From contig CANKYF010000009.1 of NCBI GenBank assembly GCA_947487895.1, positions 62,001 to 126,000 of the forward strand: 64,000 nt of DNA. The letters are read 5' to 3'. The notes below the pieces were generated by a model. The model made no database searches. It was not told the origin of the DNA and worked only from the letters and a program-made list of their open reading frames with translations. Positions 17,412-64,000 of the stretch are shown here, one piece after another (the stretch's first letter is position 1; each line of letters starts with the position of its first letter). Source of the stretch: an uncultured Flavobacteriaceae bacterium. Lineage in GTDB: Bacteria > Bacteroidota > Bacteroidia > Flavobacteriales > Flavobacteriaceae. Made by a program: the position numbers and the translations under genes.

Positions 17412-18890
17412 ATGGACGAATTTTTAAAAAAGCAATTATTTCAGCAGACTCGTAGAGGGTTTCTAAAAAAGGCATCACTTGGTTTTGGCTCTATTGCATT
17501 ATCAAGCATGTTGGGACCAACAAATTCCTTTGCTAATTCATTGATTTCTGGTAACCCATCTAACAATGGCATAAATAATATTTTAAAGGGTACGCATTTT
17601 CCAGCAAAGGCAAAACGTGTTATTTATCTCTTTCAAAGCGGTGGTCCTTCACAATTAGAAACTTTTGATTATAAGCCAGCACTTTCTAAATGGCACGCAC
17701 AAGAGATTCCAGATTCCGTTAGGGGTATGCAACGAAACTCTGGTATGGTAACAGATCAATCAACTTTTCCTTTGGTAAAGTCTATTTATGATTTTAAACA
17801 ATATGGACAGTCTGGTGCTTGGGTGAGTGAACTTTTTCCTCATACGGCAAAAGTTGTTGATGACCTATGTATCATCAAATCTATGCATACCGATGCTATT
17901 AATCATGAACCAGCCGTTATGTTTGTACAAAGTGGATCGCAAATTAGCGGACGACCTTCCATAGGTTCATGGCTTAGTTATGGTCTTGGTAGCGATAATG
18001 AAAATTTGCCCAATTTTGTTGTCATGTTATCTAAAGGTAGTTCTGGAGGTGCGCAACCCTTAAGTTCTGCTGCATGGGGAAACGGTTTTTTACCTTCTCA
18101 TCACCAAGGCGTACAGTTTCGTTCAGGAAAAGATCCTGTGTTATACTTGAACAATCCTCATGGAGTTCATGATCACGACCGTAGAAGAGCACTCAATTAT
18201 ATTAAGGATTTTAATAATGAACAATATAATTTATGGAACGATCCTGAAATTCAATCAAAAATTAATCAGTACGAAATGGCATACCGGATGCAAAATTCAG
18301 TTCCCGATGCAGTAGATGTTTCCGATGAACCAGAACATATTTACAAGCTTTATGGAGAAGATGCTAGAAAGCCTGGTACATATGCTGCTAACTGTCTTCA
18401 AGCTCGTCGTTTGGCAGAAAAAGATGTGAAGTTTATACAGCTCTATCATACAGGATGGGATCAGCATGGTAATCTGCCTGGAGCAATTAAGTCGCAAGCC
18501 ATGGATACAGATCAGGCTACAGCTGGACTCATAACAGACTTAAAACAACGCGGATTATTAGAAGATACCTTGGTTATTTGGGGAGGCGAATTTGGTCGTA
18601 CTAGTTTTTCTCAAGGAAGATTAACAGCAACTAATTATGGTAGAGACCATCACCCAGGCTGCTTTACTATGTGGATGGCAGGAGCAGGAGTTAAACCTGG
18701 TATGGTGTATGGTGAAACTGATGATTTTAGCTATAATGTGGTTCGAAATGGGGTGCATATTCATGACTTTCAGGCCACCTTGTTACACCTTTTAGGGATG
18801 GACCATGAAAGACTAACGTTTAAACATCAAGGCCGTCGTTATCGTTTAACAGATGTGCATGGTCATGTAATAAAAGATATTTTAGCATAA
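17412..18890 (+). CDS. DUF1501 protein, Tat-exported, alkaline-phosphatase/sulfatase-like fold
   Basis: A 492-residue protein with an N-terminal twin-arginine signal (RRGFLKKAS, residues 14-22), so it is exported folded. The body is DUF1501, with FQSGGPSQLETFDYKP near 75-90, MHTDAINHEPAVMFVQSG near 158-175, WDQHGN near 354-359, and WGGEFGRTSFSQG plus GRDHHPGCFTMWMAGAG near 395-435. The last two contain the Glu, His and Asp residues typical of the alkaline-phosphatase superfamily. It always accompanies DUF1549/DUF1553 proteins in the genomes where that family is common, and here it starts 52 bases after one. The reaction is unknown. A hydrolase or metal-dependent enzyme acting with the cytochrome partner is inferred. 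Confidence 0.85.
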   Translation: MDEFLKKQLFQQTRRGFLKKASLGFGSIALSSMLGPTNSFANSLISGNPSNNGINNILKGTHFPAKAKRVIYLFQSGGPSQLETFDYKPALSKWHAQEIPDSVRGMQRNSGMVTDQSTFPLVKSIYDFKQYGQSGAWVSELFPHTAKVVDDLCIIKSMHTDAINHEPAVMFVQSGSQISGRPSIGSWLSYGLGSDNENLPNFVVMLSKGSSGGAQPLSSAAWGNGFLPSHHQGVQFRSGKDPVLYLNNPHGVHDHDRRRALNYIKDFNNEQYNLWNDPEIQSKINQYEMAYRMQNSVPDAVDVSDEPEHIYKLYGEDARKPGTYAANCLQARRLAEKDVKFIQLYHTGWDQHGNLPGAIKSQAMDTDQATAGLITDLKQRGLLEDTLVIWGGEFGRTSFSQGRLTATNYGRDHHPGCFTMWMAGAGVKPGMVYGETDDFSYNVVRNGVHIHDFQATLLHLLGMDHERLTFKHQGRRYRLTDVHGHVIKDILA

Positions 18891-31276: not shown

Positions 31277-32716
31277 ATGAAATATAATAAACTTTTAATC
31301 GCAATAATTACGGTGTTTTTGGTCTTAGGTTGTACCACTAAAACCAAATTAGAAAAACCCAACATTCTACTTATTATAGCCGATGATTTAGGCTGGGGAG
31401 ATATTGGATATAACAACCCCAATGCGGTATACACCCCAAACCTAGATCGTCTTGCAGAGTCAGGAGCGCTTTTTGAACAACATTATACCATGCCACAATG
31501 CACTCCCACACGTGTAGCATGTATTACAGGACGTTACCCCAGTAGATTTGGATACTCTGGCAACATTGCGACCAATGAAAAATGTTTTGATGTGGGTACT
31601 CCTACATTGGCAACCATGTTAAAATTAGAAGGATATCGCACACATATTGCGGGTAAATGGCATATGGGTTCAGATACCATTAATGGTCCTAATCATCACG
31701 GTTTTGATGAAAGTTATGGTTCTATGGCTGGTGCCGTAGGGATGTACGACCATCGTTATAGGTTATCAACTAAATGGGCCAATGCTTGGCATCGTAACCA
31801 TAAGTCTATTGTAGGGAATGAAGATGGGATCCACGTGACTGAATTAATGACTAAAGAAACACAACGGGTCATCAAACAAAAATCAGAACAACCATTTTTT
31901 ATGTTTCTAACCTATCACGCTCCCCATACGCCACTTGATGAAAGAGGTAGTTTTACAGACCTTCCAACCCAACTTGACCCTAAAGACCCCAGCCGATGGT
32001 TGAATGAAAACAAAATAAAGTGGTTTAACGATCCTCAAGGTAAGATTCAAAAAGAACCCGATCCAGAAAAGCGATTGTTTTTAGCTGCAGTTTATCATTT
32101 AGATAATGCTATTGGACGCATTGTAGACACACTTGAGGAAGAAGGCAAATTAGATAATACGCTTATTTTGTTTTCTTCGGATAATGGTCCTCAAGTATCA
32201 TGGGCAGGTAACTCATATCCAGATGACCTCTATCTAACAGACTTTAATCAAGAAATTCCCATGCGTGGGTCAAAGCTGGATGTTTGGGAAGGAGGCATTC
32301 ATGTGCCTGCATTTATGTATTGGAAAGGAAAGATCAAGCCCAAAAAAATAGCTATGCCAGTACACATAATAGATTGGTTTCCAACATTGACGGAAATTAC
32401 AAAGCACCAACAAAACAAGGAATACAACTTAGACGGATTAAACCTTGCACCAGTTTTATTTGCAAATGAAGACCTTCCTGATCGTGATTTATATTGGACA
32501 TGGAACAACAGTTTTAACCGTTGGGCTTTGCGATACAAGGATTGGAAAATCGTAAAGTATGGTAAGGGAGACCCAAAACTTGCTGATTGGGAATTATACA
32601 ATCTAAAAGATGATCCTAAAGAGATAACGAATTTGAGCAAAGAATTCCCTGAAAAGCTAAAAGAACTACATAAACGCTTTTTGGTACAGCGATCCAAAGA
32701 TCATATTTCTAAATAA
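31277..32716 (+). CDS. S1-family (formylglycine-dependent) sulfatase, lipoprotein
   Basis: A 479-residue sulfatase with a lipoprotein signal (LVLGC, Cys near 19). Near the N-terminus, ADDLGWGD supplies calcium-binding Asp residues. The active-site motif CTPTR (75-79) has Cys75 as the residue converted to formylglycine, followed by ACITGRYPSRFG. Later motifs include GKWHMG (about 125-130) and FSSDNGPQ (about 297-304), contributing the usual Lys, His, Asp and Asn ligands. Length is normal. It would remove sulfate from an algal glycan at the surface or in the periplasm. The maturase for the Cys is not in the window. The subfamily was not determined. A second, partial copy of its 3' end appears at 39471. 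Confidence 0.92.
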   Translation: MKYNKLLIAIITVFLVLGCTTKTKLEKPNILLIIADDLGWGDIGYNNPNAVYTPNLDRLAESGALFEQHYTMPQCTPTRVACITGRYPSRFGYSGNIATNEKCFDVGTPTLATMLKLEGYRTHIAGKWHMGSDTINGPNHHGFDESYGSMAGAVGMYDHRYRLSTKWANAWHRNHKSIVGNEDGIHVTELMTKETQRVIKQKSEQPFFMFLTYHAPHTPLDERGSFTDLPTQLDPKDPSRWLNENKIKWFNDPQGKIQKEPDPEKRLFLAAVYHLDNAIGRIVDTLEEEGKLDNTLILFSSDNGPQVSWAGNSYPDDLYLTDFNQEIPMRGSKLDVWEGGIHVPAFMYWKGKIKPKKIAMPVHIIDWFPTLTEITKHQQNKEYNLDGLNLAPVLFANEDLPDRDLYWTWNNSFNRWALRYKDWKIVKYGKGDPKLADWELYNLKDDPKEITNLSKEFPEKLKELHKRFLVQRSKDHISK

Positions 32717-45118: not shown

Positions 45119-45199
45119 TTCTTTAATAACACTTGACCATGGCTCAAATAAATATGGATATATTCTTTGTGAATTATGGTCACCGTAAGAATTAGTAAT

Positions 45200-46709
45200 A
45201 TGAAACGAAAACTGATAGTCATACTTCTAGCCTGTACTGCCTTATTGAGATGTTCGGATGCAGAGAATGTTGCTCCTCCTAATATTGTACTCATTATCAT
45301 AGATGATATGGGTTGGAAAGATGTTGGATATGCGGGGAGTATTTTCTATGATACTCCCAATATTGATAAATTAGCTTCTGAAGGCATGCGTTTTACAAAT
45401 GCATATTCTACAGCTCCCTTATGTACGCCATCTAGAGGAGGGATTTTGTCCGGTAAATTTCCGGCGCGCACCAAGTTGACCAATGTTTTTGCTGGTCCAG
45501 CCGGACCTGATGATAGACTTCATACAAAGAGTAAATACCGTGGCGAAAATGATCAATATTTTGAAGCCTTACATAGGCACGCTTTACCAAAGTCAGAAGT
45601 CATCATACCTCAAGTGCTTGCTAAAAGTGGCTATAAGACCGGTTATTTTGGCAAATGGCATATTGGAGAATGTCCAGGTTATTATCCAGATGAGCGTGGT
45701 TTTCAGGTTGCTAAAGGCTATAGACGTGTACATGGGGTAAAATATGGCCATTTTGGAGATCGTTGGATATCTGGGAATTTTGCAAACCTACCAGATCCGG
45801 AGGATTCGGAGTTTATTCCAGAAAGATTAACCGAGGAAACCATTCAATTTATTAAAGAAAATAAAGACGAACCATATTTTACCGTCTTGTCGCACTATAT
45901 TGTTCATACGCCTATTACTCCACGTAAAGAAAAGGTACCAAAATATGAAAATCGAAAAACAACGGATCAGACGGATGCCGATTACGCAGCACTTGTAGAA
46001 AGTGTTGATGAAAGTGTGGGACAGGTTCTTGATGCCATTAAAGAATCTGGGCAGGAGCAAAATACGATAGTAATATTTACCTCAGACAATGGAGGATTGA
46101 CCTTAAGAAATATTACATCTAACTATCCCTTAATGGGCGGGAAAAGTTTTGCTTTTGAAGGGCGGGGTACGCGTTCCGATGATTATTAAATGGCTCGAAA
46201 AAATTGCACCTGGCTTAAGTGCTGAACGGGTGATTGGGACAGATTTTTATCCTACACTTCTAAGTGCTGCGGGATTGGACTTAATGCCAGAACAACATAT
46301 GGACGGTGTTGATCTAATGCCTTTATTGACAAAAAAAGAAAAGCTGAATCCGCGTCCGCTATTATTTCATTATCCTCATTATACTGGTTTTTCTGGACCT
46401 TATTCCGCTATCGTCGAGGACAATTGGAAACTCATCAGGTTTTATAATGATGAAGAAGGAGCTTATCTGCTTTACGATTTATTGAATGACCCAGGAGAGG
46501 TTAACGATCTAGCGGAAAGCAATCCTCAAAAAAGGGATTTCTTGGCGAATCGGCTTAATGTTTTATTGAAAGATATGGATGCCGAAATGCTAATAAAAAA
46601 CCCTGACTTTAAATATTCAGAATCAAAAAAAGGATTGTATAACTTAAAGTTTACCAAGGAGCTTGCTGAGCAGCAGCGACTTCATTATAAAGAACTTCTA
46701 GAAAAGTAG
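45200..46709 (+). pseudogene. S1-family sulfatase interrupted by a single-base frameshift
   Basis: Two frames join into one sulfatase of about 500 residues. The first (from the Met at 45200) has IIDDMGWKD, the active-site motif CTPSR (Cys near 75) with GGILSGKFPART, FGKWHIGE, and FTSDNGG. It then breaks after KSFAFEG. The second continues as GGVRVPMIIKWLEKIAPG and runs to 46709. One extra base in the G/C-rich run at 46160-46167 (for example C46163) explains the break. The N-terminus carries a lipoprotein-like signal (ILLAC). The rest is undamaged, so this is either a very recent mutation or a sequencing error. If intact it would be a second glycan sulfatase under operator control. An upstream Met at 45176 is less likely, because the signal peptide starts at 45200. 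Confidence 0.85.
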
Positions 46710-52647: not shown

Positions 52648-53304
52648 TTAAAACTTTCCATATTTCAAATAAGCTTCTTGCGGGTCAACACCATCCATAA
52701 TTGCTTTTCTTACCAAGTTTTCGGTTTTTAATACCTCTTCTGCTTTTTCTAAAACTTCTTTTGAAATATGTTCTGGTATTATGACCACTCCATCTCTGTC
52801 GGCTATAACGTAATCTCCCGTATTTATTTTTACACTACCAATAATAATGGGTTCCTCAAAGCTATCGGCTACCCATCTTCCTACAATGTCAACAGGAGTG
52901 TAGTATTTGCAAAATACTTTAAATCCAATTTTATTGATAAAATTGGAATCTCTACAACCTCCATCAACAATATAACCTCTAATACCTCTTAATTGAAGTG
53001 TCTCTGAAGACAACTCTCCCATATGCGACAGCGTATCATCATTTGGTTGGCAAATGACCACACTTCCTTTTGGCGCTTTTGATAATAGTGCAGTCCATTG
53101 TAATAATGTCTCATGGGGATCTAAGGTGTCGTCATAGCGCCCACTAACCGTAAAAACCTTACCTGCCAATTTTTTATCAATATCTAAGGGGCGAATGGTA
53201 TTGGGTAATGTTTGATTTGGATAGCCCATGGCTCTAAGCACATCATATACTGCACCAGAATAACAACACTCTAATCTGTCTGAAAAATTTATAGCTTCAC
53301 TCAT
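52648..53304 (-). CDS. RraA-like / 4-hydroxy-4-methyl-2-oxoglutarate aldolase family protein
   Basis: A 218-residue cytoplasmic protein with the RraA/HMG-aldolase fold. It has a GELSSETLQLRGIRGYIVDGGCRDS motif (about 96-119), in which the Arg and Asp of GGCRDS bind substrate and the metal. A late GDYVIADRDGVVIIP motif lies near 163-177. Members include aldolases that split 4-hydroxy-2-oxo acids to pyruvate, and the RNase E regulator RraA. In a catabolic operon the aldolase or decarboxylase activity is much more likely. It is the last gene of the nine-gene minus-strand operon and would fit a final C-C cleavage. Substrate not identified. Confidence 0.8.
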   Translation of the reverse strand: MSEAINFSDRLECCYSGAVYDVLRAMGYPNQTLPNTIRPLDIDKKLAGKVFTVSGRYDDTLDPHETLLQWTALLSKAPKGSVVICQPNDDTLSHMGELSSETLQLRGIRGYIVDGGCRDSNFINKIGFKVFCKYYTPVDIVGRWVADSFEEPIIIGSVKINTGDYVIADRDGVVIIPEHISKEVLEKAEEVLKTENLVRKAIMDGVDPQEAYLKYGKF

Positions 53305-53344
53305 AATATTTTCTTATTGTATCTATTTTAAATTTATTGTATTA

Positions 53345-53794
53345 CTAGGAATGGCTCTTTTTTTCTACTAATAAAATATGGTCACAGACCAAAACCAATT
53401 CATTTTTTTGATTGAGGATTTCCACGTGTTCATTTACTTGACCTAAATGGACATGTTTGGATTCTTTTTTTTTACTTATGGTTACTATCACTCTAATAGT
53501 ATCTCCAATATGCACTGGTTTAACAAAGCGCAACCTATCATAACCTTTAGAAAATGCTACGGGATTGATTTCAGTTGCTGTCATTCCAATACCAACAGAA
53601 AAGGTTAACGTACCATGTGCAATACGTTGTTTAAAGGGTTGTGTACTGCACCATTCTGTGTCCATATGATGAGGGAAAAAATCACCTGTATGGCCTGCAT
53701 GAACCACAAAATCTGTTTCTGTGATCGTGCGACCTAAAGTTTCCCTTTTGTCCCCCATTTTATAATCTTCAAAATATCTTGATTTGATATGCAT
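53345..53794 (-). CDS. MaoC-like hot-dog hydratase (copy 1)
   Basis: A 149-residue single hot-dog-fold protein of the MaoC/R-hydratase family. The hydratase motif region is present: [17 protein letters not shown] (about 32-48) with the catalytic Asp/His pair, followed by [16 protein letters not shown]. Such enzymes hydrate 2-enoyl-CoA thioesters or the reverse. It resembles the second MaoC gene at 57470 in the same operon. With CoA-transferases upstream, a CoA-thioester substrate is plausible. It follows a deletion scar and lies 40 bases before the RraA-like gene. Confidence 0.85.
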
Positions 53795-53804
53795 AGCTTT
53801 TATT

Positions 53805-53940
53805 TTAATTCGTTGTTACCTGCCCATCCAACCAACCACTGTCTACCAATACTATAGTTTCATTCATATAAGCTACAGCTTCAGAAGCTAGAAATATTCC
53901 TATTTCTATTCTTACTTTACTCAGTTGTCGGGCTTTCGAT
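53805..53940 (-). pseudogene. 3' relic of an SDR dehydrogenase gene
   Basis: In the gap between the two blocks of the operon, the minus strand encodes RIEIGIFLASEAVAYMNETI then [15 protein letters not shown] and a stop. This is the standard C-terminus of short-chain dehydrogenases (LAS...S/AY.TG...VDGGW). The catalytic part is missing. It overlaps the start of the alcohol-dehydrogenase relic, so both came from one deletion. Confidence 0.7.
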
Positions 53941-53994
53941 TTTCTTTTCTACAACGGAAAATGTTTTGTTCCCGTGGTATTGTGTTACTATCAT
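53917..53994 (-). pseudogene. 5' relic of a zinc alcohol-dehydrogenase-like gene
   Basis: An ATG at 53994 (minus) starts MIVTQYHGNKTFSVVEKK, the typical first strand pair of MDR/zinc-type alcohol dehydrogenases, then stops after 25 codons. The rest of the gene, and the 5' part of a following SDR gene, appear to have been deleted together. It starts 16 bases after the Gfo/Idh/MocA stop, as expected for the next operon gene. Confidence 0.5.
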
Positions 53995-54009
53995 ATGTGC
54001 ATACGTTTT

Positions 54010-55080
54010 TTAAATATCATAGTTTGGTGGTACCCCGCCAGTATTGTTGGATTCATATGCGGCTTCAACAATTGCCATAGAATGTGCGACGTCTTCAACA
54101 CTAGTTGGAAGTACTTTTGAAGAACCTTCTGCGTGCCGCATTAATGAAGCCATACTGCCTACAAAAGCATCGGGAAACCATGAACCTTCCAGTGCTACTT
54201 CTTTCCATTTTGGTTCTTTTCCATCTTTTAAGATACAATATTGAAACAAGTCTGGTTTACCATGCGGATAGTCAAGCAAAAGACCTATTCTTGCTTTAAT
54301 GGCACCTTTTGTACCTTCCCATTTTACAAAACTCTCTTGATTTTTTTCTCCAAAATTATGATCATGATTGGTATTGATAATAGATCTTATGCTATCACCA
54401 TAATCCATTATCGTAGTTGTGCGTGTAGATGACATTGATTTTGCTGGATTTGCCAAGGTTTTAGAATACACTTTTTTTGGATTACCTAAAAATGATCTGA
54501 TCAAATCAATGTAATGAATACTGTGCTGTTGGATTTCTAAACGGGGGTGGTTCATTACATTAGGAAAGTACTCCCAAGGGGTGTGGATTGTTAACCGTAC
54601 CTCAAAATCATATAATTCTCCAATTAGACCTTGGTTTATGAGGTGTTTTGCGGCCATAACATATGGGGCAAAGCGCATTTGGCAATTGATGGCTGCTTTC
54701 AATTTTTTACGACGACACACTTCTAAAATAGCTAATGTCTGTTCGTAATTATTACCCATGGGTTTTTGGATTAGTACCACAGCTTCATTTGGTAACAATT
54801 CTAAAGTTTTTACAAATTGACCGGGCATTAAAGTTAAATCGAATACCGCATTTTTTGGTGCAGCTTCAACCATTTCTTCAACCGTATCAAACACTTTGGG
54901 AATATTGAAAAATTCAGCCAGATCTGTTGCACGTTTTTTCGTTCGGTTGGTAATACCTGCTACGTTAAACCCTATATTCCTGTAAGCTGGTAAATGCGCG
55001 TCTTTAACTATTCCACCAGCTCCAATGATGTATATTGGTCTGTTTTCTATGGGTAATTTAGGTTTGTATATTATTTTCAC
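54010..55080 (-). CDS. Gfo/Idh/MocA family oxidoreductase
   Basis: A 356-residue cytoplasmic protein. The N-terminal Rossmann domain (about 15-135) has the GAGGIVKDAHLPAY motif. The family EKP motif appears as QKP (IQKPMGNNYE, about 106-115). The C-terminal alpha/beta domain carries QQHSIHYIDLIRSF near 182-195 with the likely catalytic His. These enzymes oxidise or reduce sugars, sugar acids or inositols with NAD(P). The start is 2 bases after the stop of the solute-binding-like gene, so it is translationally coupled. It implies that the operon processes a sugar or sugar acid. The Glu-to-Gln change in EKP is unusual but not unique. Confidence 0.85.
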   Translation of the reverse strand: MKIIYKPKLPIENRPIYIIGAGGIVKDAHLPAYRNIGFNVAGITNRTKKRATDLAEFFNIPKVFDTVEEMVEAAPKNAVFDLTLMPGQFVKTLELLPNEAVVLIQKPMGNNYEQTLAILEVCRRKKLKAAINCQMRFAPYVMAAKHLINQGLIGELYDFEVRLTIHTPWEYFPNVMNHPRLEIQQHSIHYIDLIRSFLGNPKKVYSKTLANPAKSMSSTRTTTIMDYGDSIRSIINTNHDHNFGEKNQESFVKWEGTKGAIKARIGLLLDYPHGKPDLFQYCILKDGKEPKWKEVALEGSWFPDAFVGSMASLMRHAEGSSKVLPTSVEDVAHSMAIVEAAYESNNTGGVPPNYDI

Positions 55081-55082
55081 GA

Positions 55083-56315
55083 TTAACCTTTTTCTATAAG
55101 ATTTATTTCTTTTTGGGCTGCGGTCAAAATATGTTCAATGTCTTCTGACGTATTAATTACTTTTAACACAAGTTGGTCTATTATATCACCTATTTCGGAC
55201 CAATTGCTCTTTCTGGGAAGAGATTTCGTGTTTTTGTGTAATTCTTCCAATTTGTAATAGTAAGGTACTTTACTATTTACTTCTTTATCATGCCATGTAG
55301 ATTTTCTAGAACCTATTCCCCCGTTAAGGGTTAATAACTTATCATTTTCTGTATTTATCGCAAAACGAATAAAATCGTAGGCAATGTTTTTATGTTGGCT
55401 TCCAGTACCAATAGCGTACATCCAATAAGCATTTAAAGAAACACCTTCTCCGTTAGGTCCAGAGGGGACTATGGCAATATCTACTTTGCCCTTTACCTTT
55501 GATTGTGGGATTACTTCGCACATAGATGCGAAACCAAACCAATTCACCATTGTAGCCAATTCGCCATTGGCAAATGCCATTCCTGATTTTACTGAGTCAA
55601 AATTTCTAGAATCTGGATGTAACGCCTTAGTGTTTTTTAAGGCAGCTCTGTAGAATTCCATACCCTCTTTAGCGGCATTTGAATTTACCATAACCTTGCC
55701 GTTTTCATGTACTAATTCCCCACCTCTTGTCCATAATTGTAAGCAAAAATCAAAAACAGTATTATGTCCGTCTGGATACGCAGCAAAGGTGGTGCCATAC
55801 AGATTGTCTTTTGGGCGATTAAAGAATTCTGCAACCTCAAGAAGTTCATCCCATGTTTTTGGAGGATTCAAAGCCTTACCATATTTTTTTTGAAAGGCCT
55901 TTTGTTCTATGGAAGATTCCATCAAGTCTTTCCTGTAGATCAAACATTCAGGGCCATTGTGAAAGGGGAGACCAACAACCTTTTCTCCAAATTCCTGTTT
56001 TTCTAAGAGGGATGTTGACCAACCATCAGGAAAGTCATCGGGTGGGTTCTTGGTAATATATGGCGCTAAATTGACCAATGCATTTTTAGAATTGGCTTCT
56101 GTGATCCAATCTGTGTTGATCAGTGATACATCCCAAGTTCCGTTTGCCAACCCATTGTCTTTTATAATGGTATCGTAGAGCGGGTGCAAGTCCAATGAAA
56201 CGGCATCCAATTCTAGTGTACATGTTGTTTCCTTACAAAAGGCATCCCAAATGTCGTCTATTGTTTTTTCAAAAGCATCAAACTTACGAACTGCAATCCT
56301 AAATTTATTCTTCAT
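55083..56315 (-). CDS. Solute-binding-protein-like protein without signal peptide (copy 1)
   Basis: A 410-residue protein with the fold signature of ABC sugar-binding proteins (family 1). Visible elements are the first strand KFRIAVRKFDAFEK, DVSLINTDWITEANSKNALVNL, VVGLPFHNGPECLIYRKDL, LNPPKTWDELLEVAEFF, LWTRGGELV and MYAIGTGSQHKNIAYDFIRF. It starts directly with the first strand of the mature fold. There is no signal peptide and no lipobox, so it should stay in the cytoplasm. No ABC permease or ATPase is nearby. It lies 4 bases after the CoA-transferase stop and 2 bases before Gfo/Idh/MocA, fully embedded in the catabolic operon. An intracellular substrate carrier, sensor or enzyme role is inferred. 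Confidence 0.75.
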   Translation of the reverse strand: MKNKFRIAVRKFDAFEKTIDDIWDAFCKETTCTLELDAVSLDLHPLYDTIIKDNGLANGTWDVSLINTDWITEANSKNALVNLAPYITKNPPDDFPDGWSTSLLEKQEFGEKVVGLPFHNGPECLIYRKDLMESSIEQKAFQKKYGKALNPPKTWDELLEVAEFFNRPKDNLYGTTFAAYPDGHNTVFDFCLQLWTRGGELVHENGKVMVNSNAAKEGMEFYRAALKNTKALHPDSRNFDSVKSGMAFANGELATMVNWFGFASMCEVIPQSKVKGKVDIAIVPSGPNGEGVSLNAYWMYAIGTGSQHKNIAYDFIRFAINTENDKLLTLNGGIGSRKSTWHDKEVNSKVPYYYKLEELHKNTKSLPRKSNWSEIGDIIDQLVLKVINTSEDIEHILTAAQKEINLIEKG

Positions 56316-56319
56316 ATCC

Positions 56320-57459
56320 TTAAGTTAGTTCATTTATGATAGCCTCGGTATGTTCCCCCAACGCTGGCGAACCTAGGGCAGAGGTTAACAATTTGCCATC
56401 AATTTTAATTGGGCATCGGGTGGTCTTATATTCAAAACCATCACCCATGACCACTTTTTGGATCATGTCTAATACTTTGAATCCTTCATGATCAAACAAG
56501 GTATTCCAGTTAAGTACATTGGCGCACCAAATATCAGCGGGTTCCAATACGGATAACCATTTTTCTGTGGTTTCGGTTTTTAAATGGTCTGCTAGAATTT
56601 TTTTTATCTCGTCTCTTTGGGTAAACCAGCTTTCAGGTTCTGGGTAGTTTTTGAGTTGTTCGCACTCTAAAAGCTCTCCAAGAAATGGTATAGCCCCCAT
56701 AGCCAAGGACAAATGACCATTCTTGGTTTTATAAATACCATACGGAGCACCTAAATAAGCATGGGCATTGTTTTCTGTAGAACGTTCCGTAGGTTGCCCG
56801 CCATCATGATAAAACGTTGTGATTGTCTCAAATTGAAAATCCAAAATGGATTCCAGCATACTTACGGAAACTTTCATTCCCTTTCCAGTTTTGGACTTTT
56901 TGACCAAAGCTGCTAAAATTCCTTGTGCTAAATGGGAACCTGATAAGATATCAACAATTGCCAAACCCATTGGTACGGGACCATCATGACCATTACCGCT
57001 TAACCAAGTCAGTCCTGATAAAGATTGTAGCAACAGGTCTTGGCCTGGTTTTGATTTCCAGGGACCTTCTTCTCCGTATCCAGAAATACTACCATAAATA
57101 ATACTTGGATTTATTTTTTTTATGGTTCCATAATCCAAACCTAGACGTTCTATTACTCCTGGTCTAAAATTATGGATTAAGACATCTGCTTTTTCAATAA
57201 GTTTTAAAACAAGTGTCTTGTCAGTTTTATTCTTCAAATCTGCCTGAAAACTCTCTTTATTTCTATTAATTGCCCTAAAAACAGAAGACTCGCCATTAAG
57301 AATAACATTTGAAATATAAAGTTGTCTGCATAAATCTCCAGTCTCGGGTCGTTCTACTTTAATGACACGAGCACCTAGATCTGCCAGTCGCAATGTGGCC
57401 GATGGGGCAGATAAGAATTGACTTAGGTCTATAATCAGTATATCATCTAAAGGCTTCAT
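56320..57459 (-). CDS. CaiB/BaiF family CoA-transferase (copy 1)
   Basis: A 379-residue type III CoA-transferase. It has the N-terminal [28 protein letters not shown] motif, [14 protein letters not shown] (about 97-110), and [24 protein letters not shown]. Asp141 in the last motif is the probable site of the acyl-anhydride intermediate. Its C-terminal part (with TTRCPIK) is similar to the second copy at 57977, to which it is clearly related by duplication. The enzymes move CoA between carboxylic acids. At about 380 residues both copies are a little shorter than the usual 400-440. It is 11 bases after the MaoC gene in the operon. Confidence 0.85.
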
Positions 57460-57469
57460 TTGCGAACTG

Positions 57470-57973
57470 TTATTTTAAGAAATTTTCAGGGTTTCTATAC
57501 TTTACTGTTTGTAAATGTTCGCAGTAAAGTACCAATTCTCCAGGATGCTTGTACACTTCGTAACTTACAGTAATCAAGCCCATATTTTCATACTTTGGTT
57601 CTTTGCTTAAATGCGTGCGAACCGTATAGATGGTGTCATTTATGAATACAGGTTTAATGAACCTAAGTTTATTATAACCATAACTAAAGGTGTTTACATT
57701 ATTATTGGCCATTAGACCCAGACCTAAACTGAAGACCATTGCACCGGCTACTAAACGTTTTTCAAAGAGACCTTCATTCTCGGCAAACACCTGATCTCCT
57801 ACGTAGGGGTGCATATCCAATACCAATCCATTGAAAAGCATCGCTTCTCCTTCTGATATAGTTCTTCTTATAGAACGGTCTTTTTGTCCAATTATAAAGT
57901 CTTCATATAGCCACGTTTCCGTATTATATACTGGTATACTGTCATGTTTTTCTAAAGGTGTGTTTTCTGGCAT
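57470..57973 (-). CDS. MaoC-like hot-dog hydratase (copy 2)
   Basis: A 167-residue hot-dog-fold protein related to the copy at 53345. The motif region is altered: [21 protein letters not shown], with the Asp and His shifted from the GDxxPxHxD pattern. Then come [19 protein letters not shown] and [16 protein letters not shown]. It is placed between the two CoA-transferase genes (10 and 3 bases from them), so it most likely hydrates or dehydrates the CoA thioester they make. The two MaoC copies may pair as a heterodimer. The different active-site spacing could mean a different substrate. Confidence 0.8.
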
Positions 57974-57976
57974 TAC

Positions 57977-59119
57977 TTATAGTTTAAATTCTTCTATTAT
58001 CGCCTTATTGTGTTGACCAACTCTGGGAGCTCCTTTTGAAGCGAATATTTTTTTGTCATTAAATTGGATGGGACATCGAGTAGTATGTATCTTTTTCTTT
58101 GAATCTAATAGTATTTTTTGATCCATCTGCAGCACACTGTAAGCTGGATGTTGCAGTAACTTCGTATAGGTGAGAACATCAGAACACCAAATATCTTTTG
58201 CTTCTAAACGGTCCAACCAATATGACGTAGTTTCCTTAACAAGAACGGTTCTTAAGAGATCCATAATTTCGTCACGTTCTGTAAACCATGATTTTGGGTC
58301 ATCATACTGGAACAATTCTGGACTCTTGAGTACTTCACCAAGCTCATGTAGTGACCCCATTGCTAATGAGATGTATCCATTCTTGGTTTTGTAGATTCCG
58401 TAGGGAGCAGATAAATAAGCATGCGAAGAACCTTCTTTGGCACGTTGGGGAAGTTTATTACCATTATTTAAGTAGGTGGTAATGACCTCAAATTGGAAAT
58501 CCAGTATTGACTCAAGCAGACTAACCTCTACTAGTGCTCCCTTGCTTGTCTTGCCCCTTTTAATTAAGGCAGCTAAAATTCCATGAACTAAATGTGTTCC
58601 GGTCAAAATGTCCACGGCAGCCAAACCCATAGGTACTGGCTCGTCATTTTTGTTTCCAGTCAAATGTGTGAGTCCAGATAGGCTTTGTACCAAAAGATCT
58701 TGTCCTGGTTTTTTTGCCCAAGGACCTTTAGTACCATAACCTGTTATGGAAGCGTATATCAATTTTGGGTTAATTTCCCTTGCCTTATCATAATCTAATC
58801 CTATTTTTTCCATAACTCCAGGTCTAAAGTTATGCGTCATCACATCTGCTAAGGCTATAAGTTTTTTTACTTTTTTAAGATCATCAGGGTCTTTTAGATT
58901 TGCAGTATATGATTCTTTATCCCTATTTACGGTATGAAAAACTAAACTGTTTCCATCGATAAAAAGATTTTTGATAGCAATTTGTCTGCACCCTTCTCCA
59001 TGGATTGGTCGCTCAATTTTTATAACCCTAGCCCCAAAATCCGCTAAACGAAGTCCAGCGGAAGGCCCAGCCATATACTGGCTAAATTCTAAAACTAAAA
59101 TGCCTTCTAATGGTCTCAT
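57977..59119 (-). CDS. CaiB/BaiF family CoA-transferase (copy 2)
   Basis: A 380-residue type III CoA-transferase, collinear with the copy at 56320. It has EFSQYMAGPSAGLRLADFGA at the start, NFRPGVMEKIGLDYDKA near 97-113, GYGTKGPWAKKPGQ followed by DLLVQSLSGL (Asp141 as probable catalytic residue), and HTTRCPIQF near the end. Its first 4 bases overlap the stop of the upstream solute-binding-like gene, so translation is coupled. Two related CoA-transferases in one operon may form a heterodimer, or act on substrate and product. Confidence 0.85.
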   Translation of the reverse strand: MRPLEGILVLEFSQYMAGPSAGLRLADFGARVIKIERPIHGEGCRQIAIKNLFIDGNSLVFHTVNRDKESYTANLKDPDDLKKVKKLIALADVMTHNFRPGVMEKIGLDYDKAREINPKLIYASITGYGTKGPWAKKPGQDLLVQSLSGLTHLTGNKNDEPVPMGLAAVDILTGTHLVHGILAALIKRGKTSKGALVEVSLLESILDFQFEVITTYLNNGNKLPQRAKEGSSHAYLSAPYGIYKTKNGYISLAMGSLHELGEVLKSPELFQYDDPKSWFTERDEIMDLLRTVLVKETTSYWLDRLEAKDIWCSDVLTYTKLLQHPAYSVLQMDQKILLDSKKKIHTTRCPIQFNDKKIFASKGAPRVGQHNKAIIEEFKL

Positions 59120-60273
59120 TCTATTTCTAATGATTTTTTATACAGTGTATTCAATTTATCCAATACCATTTTTTCATCACCTCCTGTCATCATATAGTCT
59201 CTGATTGGCGCACCAGCTCTATCTTGAAAATACATATGACCATTGTAACGCGGACGTAAAAATGCCCTATCTAAACTAGGCAGGGTGTTTTTAAAGAAAT
59301 CTGCCGATATGCGGTTGGTATGTTTGTCTGTCCAAGCTTTTCTATGCCCAGGTTGTCCTCCGTTATCAAAGTATACGGTTTTTTGACAGGTTTCTGAACC
59401 CACATAAGCTACATACTTTATGGCAGTTTCAGTTTCTTTGGTACTGGCTGAGACTGCTAAACCCGTTCCGCCCAAGGTGGAAATGCCTTTTCCAAACCCT
59501 TTTATATCTACCATATCATGAAAATGCAACAATTTACGAGCATAGCCATTTCTACTATAATTGGTGTAACCATACGCCCATGGGCAGTAGGCATAGTTAT
59601 CGGTTTGTGTCATTGCTTCGAATACCTGAATAGGATTCCAATTGAACATCTGGGGATCCATTTCAACGGCCAATTCCCGTAGCATCTTTAATGCTTGTAT
59701 CCCAATTTCTTGAGTGACCACATAATCTGGATGTAAACAAACATCTTCCCCAAGGGTACAGCACATCATATAGAAATTCATTAGGGTATCTTGGGGGATG
59801 CCTGGCATAAGTACCAACCCTTGTTTGGCAAGAGCCAATACATCATCATAGGTTTTGGGTAATGCTAATTTCTTTTCTTGTAAAATATCTGGCCTGCTTG
59901 CAGCTACTGGCGTTGCGGCATCTATTGCCAATGCCCATTGATGCCCGTTTGATGAATAACTCTCATGGGAACGGCCAACTGTGTTGCTCTCTAAATCTTG
60001 CATAAAAGCTTTGGAAAGGTGTTTGTTCAAAGGCAAAATGATATTGTGTTTTGCTGCAAAACCAGCCCAAGGATGATCTATTACTAATAAATCATATCGC
60101 TTTGCCAATTCATTAATAGGTTCGTCCGCAAATGCCTGCAACGATCTTTTCTCCCATGTAATAGTAACATTTGGATGCAATTCTGAAAACCGTTGGGCGG
60201 TGGCTACCATAGAGGTAAATCCCCTACTGTGGTTCCAAGTGATTCCTTTTAAAAGTATACTTTTTGCGCTCAT
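59116..60273 (-). CDS. Solute-binding-protein-like protein without signal peptide (copy 2)
   Basis: A 385-residue protein with the fold of family-1 extracellular solute-binding proteins, only distantly related to the copy at 55083. The start SILLKGITWNHSRGFTSMVA corresponds to the first strand of mature binding proteins, without any signal peptide or lipobox. Later it has YDLLVIDHPWAGFAAKHNIILPL, WALAIDAATPVAASRPDIL, FGKGISTLGGTGLAVSA and KYVAYVGSETCQKTVYF. It should be cytoplasmic. No ABC transporter genes are present, and the adjacent transporter is of RhaT type. It sits between the transporter and the CoA-transferases, overlapping the latter by 4 bases. Its function cannot be ordinary uptake. 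Confidence 0.75.
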   Translation of the reverse strand: MSAKSILLKGITWNHSRGFTSMVATAQRFSELHPNVTITWEKRSLQAFADEPINELAKRYDLLVIDHPWAGFAAKHNIILPLNKHLSKAFMQDLESNTVGRSHESYSSNGHQWALAIDAATPVAASRPDILQEKKLALPKTYDDVLALAKQGLVLMPGIPQDTLMNFYMMCCTLGEDVCLHPDYVVTQEIGIQALKMLRELAVEMDPQMFNWNPIQVFEAMTQTDNYAYCPWAYGYTNYSRNGYARKLLHFHDMVDIKGFGKGISTLGGTGLAVSASTKETETAIKYVAYVGSETCQKTVYFDNGGQPGHRKAWTDKHTNRISADFFKNTLPSLDRAFLRPRYNGHMYFQDRAGAPIRDYMMTGGDEKMVLDKLNTLYKKSLEIE

Positions 60274-60285
60274 GATAGTCTATTG

Positions 60286-61356
60286 TTAGTGGTTCGTAGT
60301 TATAGTTGTACCCATATTGCTACCGTATGCCATGATAATAAACGAAACAACAAGCACTACCAATGCTAGCAGTAAGGTAGAGTACGTTTTTTTAGATACC
60401 TGTTTCCATTCTTTCATCACAATTCCTACTATGTAACTAAAGAAAATAAGCATGGACATATGAAGAACCCAACTGGCAAATTTATAGGTTCCCATTTGCA
60501 CATGGCCAATACCATAAAAAAAGAACTGTCCGTACCATAATCCACCGCTTAAAACGGACATCCCTAAATTCAAAGAATAGTTCTTTGGTCCAATGGCTTT
60601 TACATCCACTATTTCTTTTAAGGTCTTATTTTTTAAGCCTACAATGGTAAACCATATAAAATTGGTAATAAATGCACCCCCAGTAGACAATATCAAATTT
60701 GCATTTCCTTGAAAGTTGCCACCACCGTATTCCCCAGCAATTTTTGCTATAGGTGCTCCAACTTCTAAAGAGATTCCAAATACGGCAGATAAAATACCTG
60801 CAATAATTGTTAAGCCTAAACCCTTCTTCATATTGAATGACAAAGCCACTCCACCAGAACCAACATTGCTTTTCAGGTCTTTTTCCTTTCTATATCCAGC
60901 AACACCGCAAATGATGATTCCAATGAGAGCCAATATCATTCCTGAAAAAATGGTGTAGCCGCCTGGGGCATTAAATTTTTGAAGTAATTGCCCGTTCATG
61001 CTCAATGGAACTATTGTTCCAAGAATCGCAGAAATACCTATAGAGATGGTATAAGTTAATGAATAGCCTATATGTTTAATGGCAAAACCAAAGCTCATCC
61101 CGCCAAAACCATAAACAGCTCCTAAAAGAGTTGCATTAAACAGTACTGTGCCTGGGGCGTCACTAAAAACATCCATCAAATTCGGGACGGTTAGGAATCC
61201 AATAAGAAAAGGAAAAACAAACCACGCAAAAAATGCTTGGACAATCCAATACGAATCCCATGACCATTTTTTTACTTTCTGGAACGGGACATAACACGTA
61301 GAAGCGGCTACTCCTCCCACTGCATGTATCAATGTGCCTATCAATGGATTGCTCAT
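60286..61356 (-). CDS. RhaT-like (L-rhamnose/proton symporter family) sugar transporter
   Basis: A 356-residue inner-membrane protein with about ten hydrophobic helices. The N-terminus IGTLIHAVGGVAASTCYVPF, the WVLHMSMLIFFSYIVGI segment and the spacing of helices match the RhaT family, which is part of the DMT superfamily. Such transporters bring L-rhamnose or related deoxy sugars and sugar acids into the cell with protons. It is the first gene of the operon, under a promoter in the 104-base gap to the IclR gene. No rhamnose isomerase, kinase or aldolase is present, so the substrate need not be rhamnose. Confidence 0.85.
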   Translation of the reverse strand: MSNPLIGTLIHAVGGVAASTCYVPFQKVKKWSWDSYWIVQAFFAWFVFPFLIGFLTVPNLMDVFSDAPGTVLFNATLLGAVYGFGGMSFGFAIKHIGYSLTYTISIGISAILGTIVPLSMNGQLLQKFNAPGGYTIFSGMILALIGIIICGVAGYRKEKDLKSNVGSGGVALSFNMKKGLGLTIIAGILSAVFGISLEVGAPIAKIAGEYGGGNFQGNANLILSTGGAFITNFIWFTIVGLKNKTLKEIVDVKAIGPKNYSLNLGMSVLSGGLWYGQFFFYGIGHVQMGTYKFASWVLHMSMLIFFSYIVGIVMKEWKQVSKKTYSTLLLALVVLVVSFIIMAYGSNMGTTITTNH

Positions 61357-61460: not shown

Positions 61461-62231
61461 ATGTCTAAAAAGAATACTACAAAATATAGTGCCCCTGCCT
61501 TGGATAAAGGTTTGGATATTCTTGAATACCTAGCTGATCAAGGTATTCCATTAGCACAATTAGAAATAGCTCAAGGCATTAACAAGACACCCAGTGAGCT
61601 ATACCGTATGCTTATGCGCTTAGAGGAACGGGGTTACATAATTAGAAGTTCAAACTCAGGAAAATATAGGTTATCATTAAAAATGTATAACTTATCTCAT
61701 AGACATACACCTTTTGATGAATTGAAAAGAGTTGCCCGTTATCCAATGCAATTATTAGCAGAAAAGACTAGGCAATCTTGTCATCTAAGTATAATGGACA
61801 AAGAACAACTTTTGGTTGTTTTACAGGCACATAGTCCTAACCCGGTTTCATTATCAATTAGTGAGGGGACCCATTTCCCTTTATCAATGACCACTTCTGG
61901 TAAAGTGCTTTTGTCTCGTTTTTCTGAAGAGAAACGGAACAACATACTAGCTAGAGACAGCCATTATAAAAAATGGAATCGCGAAAAAAAAGAAGAGATA
62001 CGTGAGGTTGTCCATGAAGCACAAGAAAAGGGGTTTTTGTTTTTAAATAGTGAATTAACTAAAGGAATAAACGATCTTGCCATACCCATTGGGTTATATG
62101 ATTCTGAATTGAATGCTGTTCTGGGAGTTTCTATTTTCTCTTCTCATCTTGAAAGAGAAAATAATCTTGAAGATATCATCTTAGCTCTCAAGAAAACACA
62201 AAAAGATATTAACACATTAATTGGATGTTGA
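61461..62231 (+). CDS. IclR-family transcriptional regulator
   Basis: A 256-residue regulator. It has an N-terminal winged helix (about 10-68, with ALDKGLDILEYLADQGIPL and the recognition helix region KTPSELYRMLMRLEERGYI). An IclR effector domain (about 85-250) follows, with SISEGTHFPLSMTTSGKVLLS and GINDLAIPIGLYDSELNAVLGVSIF. IclR proteins often control catabolism of aromatic or sugar acids and bind small carboxylates. It is divergent from the nine-gene operon and most likely controls it. A palindrome lies in the intervening region. Confidence 0.9.
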   Translation: MSKKNTTKYSAPALDKGLDILEYLADQGIPLAQLEIAQGINKTPSELYRMLMRLEERGYIIRSSNSGKYRLSLKMYNLSHRHTPFDELKRVARYPMQLLAEKTRQSCHLSIMDKEQLLVVLQAHSPNPVSLSISEGTHFPLSMTTSGKVLLSRFSEEKRNNILARDSHYKKWNREKKEEIREVVHEAQEKGFLFLNSELTKGINDLAIPIGLYDSELNAVLGVSIFSSHLERENNLEDIILALKKTQKDINTLIGC

Positions 62232-62339: not shown

Positions 62340-64000
62340 ATGAAGAGAATCGCTTTTTACTTACTGGTACTTGTTTCAGCTATACAGCTAAGCTGTAAGG
62401 ATTTTGAAACGAAGGAAATAGATGATCCCTATAATGTGGTGTGGAATAGCCCTTCAGCTGATGAAACTGGGCAAATGCCTCTTGGGAACGGTGATATAGC
62501 AGCTGGAGTTTATGCTATTGAAAATGACGCTTTGTACTTATTACTTTCAAAGAATGATGCGTTTACCTATAATGGAGATATTTTTAAAACAGGAAAGGTG
62601 AAAATAGAGCTGAGCCCCAATCCTTTTTCTTTAGGAAAAGCCTATCAGCAAACTCTTGATCTTAATACTGGATCTATTCAGATTACTGCGGATGAAGTAG
62701 AAATACGTGTTTGGGCAGATGCCAACAATCCTATATATCATGTAGAGGTGAATTCGCCCGAACAAATTTCTGTAAAGGCAAATGTTGAAACGTGGGAACG
62801 TTTTGATAATGCCAGCTACAATCGTTCAGGAGAGCCCTTGGATCATCCCACACAAGATGTTGTTATAAAGAAAGATAATCAAATCATAACCTACTATGCT
62901 GTAGGTGATAGAAGTGTATACGATACTGAACTGAAATATTATGAGGTTGAACATATGGCATCAGAATATCCAGACCCTTATCGTTTCAACACTTTTGGAA
63001 ACCTGATTGAAAGTCCTTCACTTAAATTGAAAGAAGGTGCTTTAACAGGCAATGGCAAATCATTTGATATACGCATCCATGCCCGTGGTGAACAAGAAGA
63101 AAATATCAATAAATGGCTTGCGAAACTCAAACAACAGCATGAGCGAGCTATAGATGTTGCCAAGGATTGGGCTTCCCATAAAGCTTGGTGGAAAACATTC
63201 TGGAGTCAAAGCTGGATTAGGGTAACAGATAATACCATTCTCCCAGAACAACGTAACCAATTAGATCATGAAGCCTATAAAACCCTTAGGGAGGTAGGTG
63301 ATGATGGTGCATTGGTTGGTCAAAGTTATACGATGTTTCGTTATTTAATGGCCTGCCAGAGTAGAGGGCGTATTCAAACTAAGTTTAACGGTGGAATTTT
63401 TACCCAACCGCTTAGATACTCAAAAAAACCACGTAGGCTTAGAGTAAAACAAGTTAGTGATAGTTTATACTTTAGTCATGTAGATGATAGACTCTGGGGG
63501 AGACGTTTTACCTTTCAAAATCAAAGGTTATTGTACTGGCCTATGCTAATGAGCGGTGATAAAGAACTTGTAAAACCGTTTTTTGATTATTATATAAATA
63601 TGCTTCCTGTTAGAAAAGAAATCAATAAGGTTTGGTTTGGACATGATGGCGCTTATTTTCGTGAAAATATAGAGCCGACTGGAGGTGAAAGGGATTGTGG
63701 CCCTTCTGCTATTTTTGGAGATCATATTGATGAAAAACCTAGAAAAACATTACCTGGTAAAAATACTGGTCTATGGCATCATGCACATTATTTTACATCT
63801 GGTTTGGAAACGGTAACAATGATGATTGCGTATACTAAATACTTTGAAGATGCTAATTTTAGTAAGAAAGTTTTGGTTCCTTTTGCTCGTGAGATATTAA
63901 CTTGGTATGACCAACATTATAAAAGAGATGAAAAAGGAAAACTAAGATTAGATCCAGCACAGGCAGCAGAGACATGGTGGACCACAGTAAATCCTACCAC
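62340..64000 (+). CDS. DUF5703-type glycoside-hydrolase-like lipoprotein (3' end beyond window)
   Basis: The open frame starts at the ATG at 62340 and runs off the window after about 553 residues. The N-terminus has a lipoprotein signal (SAIQLSC, Cys near 19). The first 240 residues form a beta-sandwich with WNSPSADETGQMPLGNGDIAAG, as in DUF5703 and GH95-like proteins. After about 280 a helical barrel begins (MFRYLMACQSRGRIQTKFNGGIFT, NQRLLYWPMLMSGD). Clan GH-L-like enzymes with this layout cleave glycosidic bonds in the periplasm or at the surface. Activity is not known for DUF5703. It may start the next part of the PUL. A fragment of a second copy lies at 52236-52330. Confidence 0.75.
   Translation, partial: MKRIAFYLLVLVSAIQLSCKDFETKEIDDPYNVVWNSPSADETGQMPLGNGDIAAGVYAIENDALYLLLSKNDAFTYNGDIFKTGKVKIELSPNPFSLGKAYQQTLDLNTGSIQITADEVEIRVWADANNPIYHVEVNSPEQISVKANVETWERFDNASYNRSGEPLDHPTQDVVIKKDNQIITYYAVGDRSVYDTELKYYEVEHMASEYPDPYRFNTFGNLIESPSLKLKEGALTGNGKSFDIRIHARGEQEENINKWLAKLKQQHERAIDVAKDWASHKAWWKTFWSQSWIRVTDNTILPEQRNQLDHEAYKTLREVGDDGALVGQSYTMFRYLMACQSRGRIQTKFNGGIFTQPLRYSKKPRRLRVKQVSDSLYFSHVDDRLWGRRFTFQNQRLLYWPMLMSGDKELVKPFFDYYINMLPVRKEINKVWFGHDGAYFRENIEPTGGERDCGPSAIFGDHIDEKPRKTLPGKNTGLWHHAHYFTSGLETVTMMIAYTKYFEDANFSKKVLVPFAREILTWYDQHYKRDEKGKLRLDPAQAAETWWTTVNPT

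Follow-up and report, generated by a model that had tools for sequence, protein, structure and literature searches.

The nine-gene operon considered here occupies positions 52648–61356, on the minus strand, of a 64,000-nucleotide stretch of DNA from an uncultured Flavobacteriaceae bacterium (contig CANKYF010000009.1), referred to below as the window. At its centre is a widespread module in which a solute-binding protein (SBP) homologue lacking a signal peptide is encoded beside a type III coenzyme A (CoA)-transferase, often by overlapping genes. The operon genes are named RhaT, SBP_A, CaiB_A, MaoC2, CaiB_B, SBP_B, Gfo, MaoC1 and RraA, and the divergent regulator gene IclR. It is quite possible, though short of probable, that the operon serves to oxidise L-fucose, or a closely related sugar, by way of a CoA ester and with the binding proteins as partners of the CoA-transferases. 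A more tentative proposal is that the cytosol-relocated SBP would be the sugar-acid-binding subunit of a two-part type III CoA-transferase, with aldonates being dehydrated as CoA esters and the CoA recycled.

The pairing of the two genes is seen across many genomes. Relatives of SBP_A are encoded in at least 478 stretches of the species collection, the best 80 of which were fetched. Relatives are present in 19 of 296 genomes of a Bacteroidota sample (three of them weak) and in 24 of 299 genomes of the family sample, while plasmid records yielded 152 matches, 90 of them from Sinorhizobium. Once repeats are removed, a same-strand CaiB gene directly adjoins SBP_A in 99 of 109 distinct loci, and seven of the ten non-adjacent loci form a distant (34–37%) subfamily. 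A first count over loci L023–L115 (93 loci minus L030) gave 89 of 92 loci with an adjacent same-strand CaiB. Of the three exceptions, L029 and L114 have a CaiB farther off in the locus, and in L109 no CaiB was found. With gene starts assigned by script, overlap was recorded for SBP_A/CaiB_A in 50 of 75 loci and for CaiB_B/SBP_B in 47 of 58. The figures for other neighbours are 17 of 75 (CaiB_A/CaiB_B), 20 of 57 (SBP_B/Gfo) and 0 of 54 (Gfo/MaoC1). In 7/10 annotated proteobacterial and actinobacterial loci the order is reversed, CaiB preceding SBP, and yet the two genes still overlap by 4 bases.

SBP_A (59116–60273) and SBP_B (55083–56315, 92 bits) both match PF01547. The AlphaFold2 model of SBP_A (predicted local distance difference test score 94.6, predicted template modelling score (pTM) 0.91) is a complete sugar-binding-protein fold, the type-1 fold of the SBPs of ATP-binding cassette (ABC) transporters, and Foldseek places it close to MalE3 (6dtq) and SmoF (7yzs) at a template modelling (TM) score of ~0.8. 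The signal peptide or lipobox of an ABC-transporter SBP is absent. In the window, an in-frame stop lies 2 codons ahead of the SBP_A ATG, with the conserved start motif right after. In 64 of the 109 distinct SBP_A loci the stop-free stretch ahead of the N-terminal motif is no longer than 20 residues, and the same is true of SBP_B in 54 of 64 motif-bearing distinct loci (67 in all). The remaining loci have a longer stop-free stretch, hydrophobic in some Flavobacterium, with a likely ATG just before the motif; these stretches were judged by eye instead of by a signal-peptide program. Both proteins are thus confidently predicted to stay in the cytosol, and ABC permease or ATPase genes are absent from among the operon genes. 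The annotated SBP_A relatives viewed are mostly labelled as extracellular or ABC-transporter substrate-binding proteins. If the present reading is right, the annotated ones among the at least 478 stretches have been assigned on paper to the wrong compartment.

The partner proteins CaiB_A (57977–59119) and CaiB_B (56320–57459) are 55% identical. The CoA_transf_3 domain (PF02515, cut-off 23.3) covers the whole length of both, at 326 and 321 bits, respectively. Asp170, which we take to be the catalytic residue numbered Asp169 in formyl-CoA transferase, is kept in 86/86 aligned rows for CaiB_A and 90/90 for CaiB_B, the same ten outgroup rows being included in both. By domain and catalytic Asp the two belong with the family III CoA-transferases, and this activity is predicted for them. 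A further CaiB-like match lies on another contig of the same genome (43% over residues 3–205 in the genome search, 27% over residues 3–380 in a full-frame comparison).

The two MaoC proteins, both PF01575, differ in their catalytic residues. The catalytic dyad of MaoC and hydratase 2 enzymes is Asp-x4-His. MaoC1 (53345–53794, 79 bits) keeps it as Asp38 and His43 in the alignment, and its nearest solved chain is 4ffu at 204 bits. MaoC2 (57470–57973) is probably not a normal hydratase, because Val stands at the usual His position in the window protein, as it does in L028, L033 and L114; the more distant L030 has His. MaoC2 is also rare, occurring in 1/59 of the loci of the window's type (type I, defined below), and among L023–L152 no second Bacteroidota locus yielded it. 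It is 65–74% identical to two proteobacterial proteins and one from a Chloroflexi bin, two of the three being encoded directly before CaiB.

The 80 fetched loci fall into 59 of type I (CaiB with Gfo), 18 of type II (CaiB with a crotonase and an aldehyde dehydrogenase) and three others. SBP_B is present in 57 and MaoC1 in 56 of the 59 type I loci; CaiB with Gfo in 59 of 80 relatives, mostly joined by these two, therefore does not represent a chance cluster. The earlier note on this DNA had called for a search for the gene order in other genomes, and such a search reveals a conserved module: the core order is kept in most of the 80 loci, chiefly in Bacteroidota but also in Gammaproteobacteria and one planctomycete; in a Chloroflexi bin the genes are arranged differently. 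Named agar degraders are the source of several type II loci, and among the neighbours scanned are one agarase-type protein, one GH16, one GH2 and one sulfatase. In a third set, found in Streptomyces and Sinorhizobium C101, CaiB and SBP are accompanied by an aldose epimerase, a short-chain dehydrogenase/reductase (SDR) and a crotonase. All 7 loci of the distant Flavobacteriaceae subfamily contain an SDR-like gene and one resembling propeller lactonases, and 5/7 a crotonase; these neighbours were called by BLAST, and one locus was checked by Pfam. The L149 type I operon also includes an amidohydrolase.

The CaiB/SBP core is thus joined to three sets of an oxidoreductase and a hydratase: Gfo with MaoC, aldehyde dehydrogenase with crotonase, and SDR with crotonase. 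Activation of an acid followed by elimination is proposed chiefly because the same core recurs in unrelated sets together with an oxidoreductase and, in most cases, a hydratase of CoA esters. This recurrence also supports the sugar-acid context, CoA activation and (de)hydration postulated in the earlier note.

For the operon type of the window, this context narrows to L-fucose or one of its close relatives, and at that level of detail the type I sugar is well supported. Symporters occur in 58 of the 59 type I loci (FucP-like in 49, RhaT-like in 9) and in none of the fetched stretches of the 18 type II loci. Against TIGR00885 (cut-off 280) the FucP reference reaches 367 bits, but against NF007524 (cut-off 427) it stays at 339; the other FucP-like proteins were assigned by BLAST to this reference. 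Eight alpha- and betaproteobacterial plasmid loci were viewed besides that of S. meliloti. Those of Roseibium, Shinella, Pararhizobium and Roseateles hold the CaiB-SBP pair with a sugar ABC transporter, mutarotase, Gfo, MaoC1, SDR and an annotated L-fuconate dehydratase (FucD). An FAH gene and an adjacent amidohydrolase are also found in Roseibium and Pararhizobium; Shinella and Roseateles are without both. The one mutarotase tested, that of Roseibium (annotated as L-rhamnose mutarotase), aligns with the solved L-fucose mutarotase across 108 residues (172 bits). In Thalassospira, a mutarotase, Gfo, MaoC1 and an amidohydrolase accompany CaiB-SBP, with no FucD in the stretch seen. In S. meliloti the CaiB-SBP pair lies ~9 kb from an amidohydrolase, which belongs to a fucose-type cluster together with an L-fuconate dehydratase 20 kb away. 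The amidohydrolase scores 105 on the L-fuconolactonase model, below its cut-off of 400. No L-fuconate dehydratase lies within 8 kb in Jannaschia, Methylobacterium or Sinorhizobium C101.

In Flavobacterium loci beside the operon, a GH141 glycosidase frame (L091:303–2843) has a C-terminal part that matches the L-rhamnose mutarotase family. In L030, a plasmid of Methylobacterium nodulans, the neighbours of the MaoC-CaiB-SBP genes encode a four-carbon acid sugar kinase and PdxA, a hint that further sugar acids are handled.

In the proposed route, RhaT would import L-fucose or a similar sugar of the L-galacto or 6-deoxy kind, and Gfo would oxidise it to the lactone or acid. CaiB_A and CaiB_B, together with the cytosolic SBP_A and SBP_B holding the polar acid, would convert the sugar acid to its CoA ester. 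MaoC1 would then remove water from C2–C3 to give the CoA ester of the 2-keto-3-deoxy acid in its enol form. The CaiB enzymes would transfer the CoA to a further molecule of sugar acid, and RraA would cleave the freed 2-keto-3-deoxy acid to pyruvate and lactaldehyde. CoA is recycled in this manner by the carnitine enzymes CaiB and CaiD, where the product acyl-CoA passes its CoA to the next substrate. The gene set, the families, the conserved pairing, the catalytic Asp and Asp/His residues, the missing signal peptide and the sugar context are all observed here; we infer from them the individual reactions, the recycling of CoA and the physical complexes.

Several results weigh against this route. 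A lactonase is absent from the window operon. RraA is found in just 1/59 type I loci, so the final split proposed in the earlier note stands less well than the preceding steps, though RraA does occur in 5/7 loci of the distant subfamily. FucI exceeds its cut-off in 5/27 relatives, all of type I (5/17 type I tested), and two further relatives match it below the cut-off. No L-fuconate dehydratase is present in the stretches seen of 4/8 alpha- and betaproteobacterial loci, and three of these four (L029, L030 and L032) showed no fucose context at all. The dehydratase stands beside the module in Roseibium, Shinella, Pararhizobium and Roseateles, and 20 kb from it in S. meliloti. A cycloisomerase-like protein is encoded in 19/19 genomes searched, including all 18 of type II, and in 11/18 of the latter its gene lies on the SBP_A contig within ~10–58 kb. 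In the distant subfamily, CaiB falls inside the fetched stretch in 3/7 loci and is adjacent in none, which speaks against an obligate pair. An AlphaFold2 model of SBP_A and CaiB_A linked by read-through (pTM 0.64) has no confident interface and speaks neither for nor against one.

It is somewhat unlikely that the cytosolic SBPs are not CoA-transferase subunits at all but enzymes in their own right (e.g., a lactonase or epimerase built on the SBP fold), partners of Gfo or intracellular ligand sensors. Such roles would suit the 41 columns of SBP_A that are invariant across 21 sequences from Bacteroidota, Proteobacteria and Actinomycetota (among them T12, W13, H15, R17, D66, H67, P68, D118, R340, P341 and R342), a degree of conservation judged unusual for a binding protein. 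The lack of a CaiB gene near SBP_A in 4/7 distant loci points the same way. So does a natural SBP_B-Gfo fusion (L151:9852–12131), a single frame of 760 residues in which Pfam places the SBP at 18–324 and Gfo at 421–537 and beyond. Fusion to an NAD-dependent enzyme would be odd for a transport protein; SBP_B, at least, therefore works beside a cytosolic enzyme, and it may serve Gfo as much as CaiB_B. In a scan of the fetched loci for fusions of the operon families, this was the only one detected, with no SBP-CaiB fusion. However, overlap is commonest for the SBP-CaiB pairs and survives changes in gene order, which argues for the partnership with the CoA-transferase.

It is unlikely that the module is an accessory branch for modified sugar acids, such as 2-O-methyl-fuconate or an O-methyl anhydrogalactonate, which performs elimination from the CoA ester beside FucD or the cycloisomerase. 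Such a branch is consistent with the presence of FucD beside the module in four proteobacterial loci, and with the cycloisomerase-like proteins encoded by 18/18 type II genomes. GH141 enzymes, which act on the 2-O-methyl-fucose of pectin rhamnogalacturonan II, also adjoin the module in Flavobacterium loci. No conserved methyl- or derivative-specific gene was seen in the operon, however, and four Flavobacterium genomes (L089, L091, L096 and L110) favour plain replacement instead. In these, lactonase-like, SDR and FAH genes stand beside the module, with no FucD at E ≤ 1e-30 and no cycloisomerase-like match better than 5e-21; FucI is absent in the one of the four tested. This lack of a FucD- or cycloisomerase-type match is the best sign that CaiB, SBP and MaoC1 carry out the dehydration.

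The window genome has no FucI, and its best FucD match (31% over part of the protein) is unconvincing. FucD is reached at E ≤ 1e-30 in 1/32 relatives, namely L056, where it has an internal stop. Cycloisomerase-like matches at E ≤ 1e-69 occur in 8/22 type I genomes. In the window genome, a protein on contig C18 (L122:1312–2400) scores 620 bits to a solved 3,6-anhydro-alpha-L-galactonate cycloisomerase and is 69–86% identical to L154–L158 and 58% to L153, all from type II genomes. Because of this relative, the window organism probably uses agar sugars too. Two ideas of replacement were discarded. Replacement of the anhydrogalactonate cycloisomerase by the module in agar degraders was rejected on the cycloisomerase-like proteins of all 18 type II genomes and the window genome. 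Replacement of FucD as a general rule was rejected on the four proteobacterial loci that hold both; FucD next to the module there means no simple replacement. In Bacteroidota the module may still take the place of FucD. Where FucD or the cycloisomerase coexists with it, the module may form a parallel branch, perhaps for acids beyond the reach of enolase-type enzymes.

As unlikely as the accessory branch is a module without CoA recycling, which would act downstream of the 2-keto-3-deoxy acid, or else on an acid of shorter chain, and deliver its acyl-CoA to central metabolism. MaoC and crotonase enzymes can hydrate as well as dehydrate. Near the Jannaschia and Methylobacterium relatives are genes for a tripartite ATP-independent periplasmic (TRAP) transporter, a four-carbon acid sugar kinase or AMP-binding proteins, and in Roseibium thiolase and AMP-binding genes lie only a few genes from the module; other acids and CoA routes are therefore possible. 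Against this, Pfam finds no thiolase, CoA-ester lyase or acyl-CoA dehydrogenase in the window operon, nor any among the recurrent neighbour clusters run through it, several small clusters lying outside that scan. That the genes act separately, their order being a historical accident, is highly improbable given its conservation in most of the 80 fetched loci.

The nine minus-strand open reading frames and the divergent IclR frame described in the earlier note are all present, and each of the ten proteins scores above the Pfam gathering threshold in the family that the note named. RhaT (60286–61356) is a RhaT-like sugar:H+ symporter by PF06379 (178 bits) that falls under the NCBIfam RhaT cut-offs. 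Gfo (54010–55080) starts with GTG, matches PF01408 and PF02894 and is a presumed sugar dehydrogenase of the Gfo/Idh/MocA family. RraA (52648–53304; PF03737, 98 bits) is a presumed pyruvate aldolase, matched by LigK and other aldolase models of NCBIfam, all below cut-off. IclR (61461–62231, plus strand) matches PF01614 and PF09339. None of the operon proteins reaches an NCBIfam cut-off; function is therefore not readable from names. The operon is tightly spaced for the most part: 12 bases separate RhaT from SBP_A, SBP_A and CaiB_A overlap by 4, and the gaps that follow are 3 (CaiB_A-MaoC2), 10 (MaoC2-CaiB_B), 4 (CaiB_B-SBP_B) and 2 bases (SBP_B-Gfo). The description fails ahead of MaoC1, which lies 215 bases after Gfo and 40 before RraA.

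Next to the IclR gene, a DUF5703_N protein runs off the window (62340–63998), and its relatives stand beside the same operon in L024, L073 and L150; a family that recurs next to the operon may therefore be a glycosidase of the same locus. The region 21852–46189 looks like an algal polysaccharide locus, encoding sulfatases (31277–32716 and 45176–46189), proteins resembling GH2 enzymes and a melibiase, and a pair of CBM96 proteins that carry secretion tails. A DUF1501 protein (17412–18890, 533 bits), whose family we associate with Planctomycetes, is present in this genome, which groups with Bacteroidota relatives.

Should the two-part CoA-transferase exist, aldonates would have a third mode of dehydration in addition to those of the enolase-type and IlvD/Edd-type enzymes. 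A CoA-dependent branch, which to our knowledge is absent from pathway databases, would be added to the catabolism of fucose- and agar-type sugars, and solute-binding proteins would gain a role outside transport. The SBP_B-Gfo fusion would then make binding subunits general helpers of sugar enzymes. In the open-access literature, with most subscription papers outside it, no description was found of a cytosolic binding protein tied to a CoA-transferase or of sugar-acid CoA esters in such a route. PMC9007349 mentions fucose twice, neither time with a bearing on the module. The earlier note knew of no described pathway with this gene set; the literature found indeed assigns it no reaction, but the set is now tied to L-fucose genes. 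What is already known is the combination of CaiB and a hydratase with CoA recycling, from carnitine, and the oxidative L-fucose pathway; the tie between SBP and CoA-transferase and the sugar-acid CoA esters would be new.

Among known systems, the ABC-transporter sugar-binding proteins MalE3, SmoF and LpqY share the complete fold with the window proteins (TM ~0.8), whereas the latter have no signal peptide and no ABC permease in the operon, and their genes are coupled to those of CoA-transferases. The oxidative L-fucose pathway (mutarotase, dehydrogenase, L-fuconolactonase, FucD, SDR and FAH) has fucose symporters and mutarotase in common with the type I loci, and annotation shows its set, with CaiB-SBP inside the cluster or close to it, in S. 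meliloti, Roseibium and Pararhizobium and, lacking FAH and the amidohydrolase, in Shinella and Roseateles. The window genome differs in having no convincing FucD, and we know of no part played in that pathway by CoA-transferase, SBP or MaoC genes. Itaconate degradation uses the Ict CoA-transferase, the Ich/RipB MaoC protein and the Ccl lyase. CaiB and MaoC are shared with it, but the window operon has a sugar transporter and no CoA-ester lyase, and an itaconate-type pathway was rejected with the RipB model at 53 bits, far below its cut-off of 340. Further parallels are the carnitine (CaiB/CaiD) and phenyllactate (FldA/FldBC) systems, both of which carry out CoA-recycling dehydration. They share with the window operon the pairing of a type III CoA-transferase with a (de)hydratase and the lack of operon genes for a CoA ligase or a CoA-ester lyase. 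The window operon differs from them in its hydratase, MaoC1 (a crotonase in other loci of the module), in its sugar context, in its two CoA-transferases and in the cytosolic SBPs as their putative partners.

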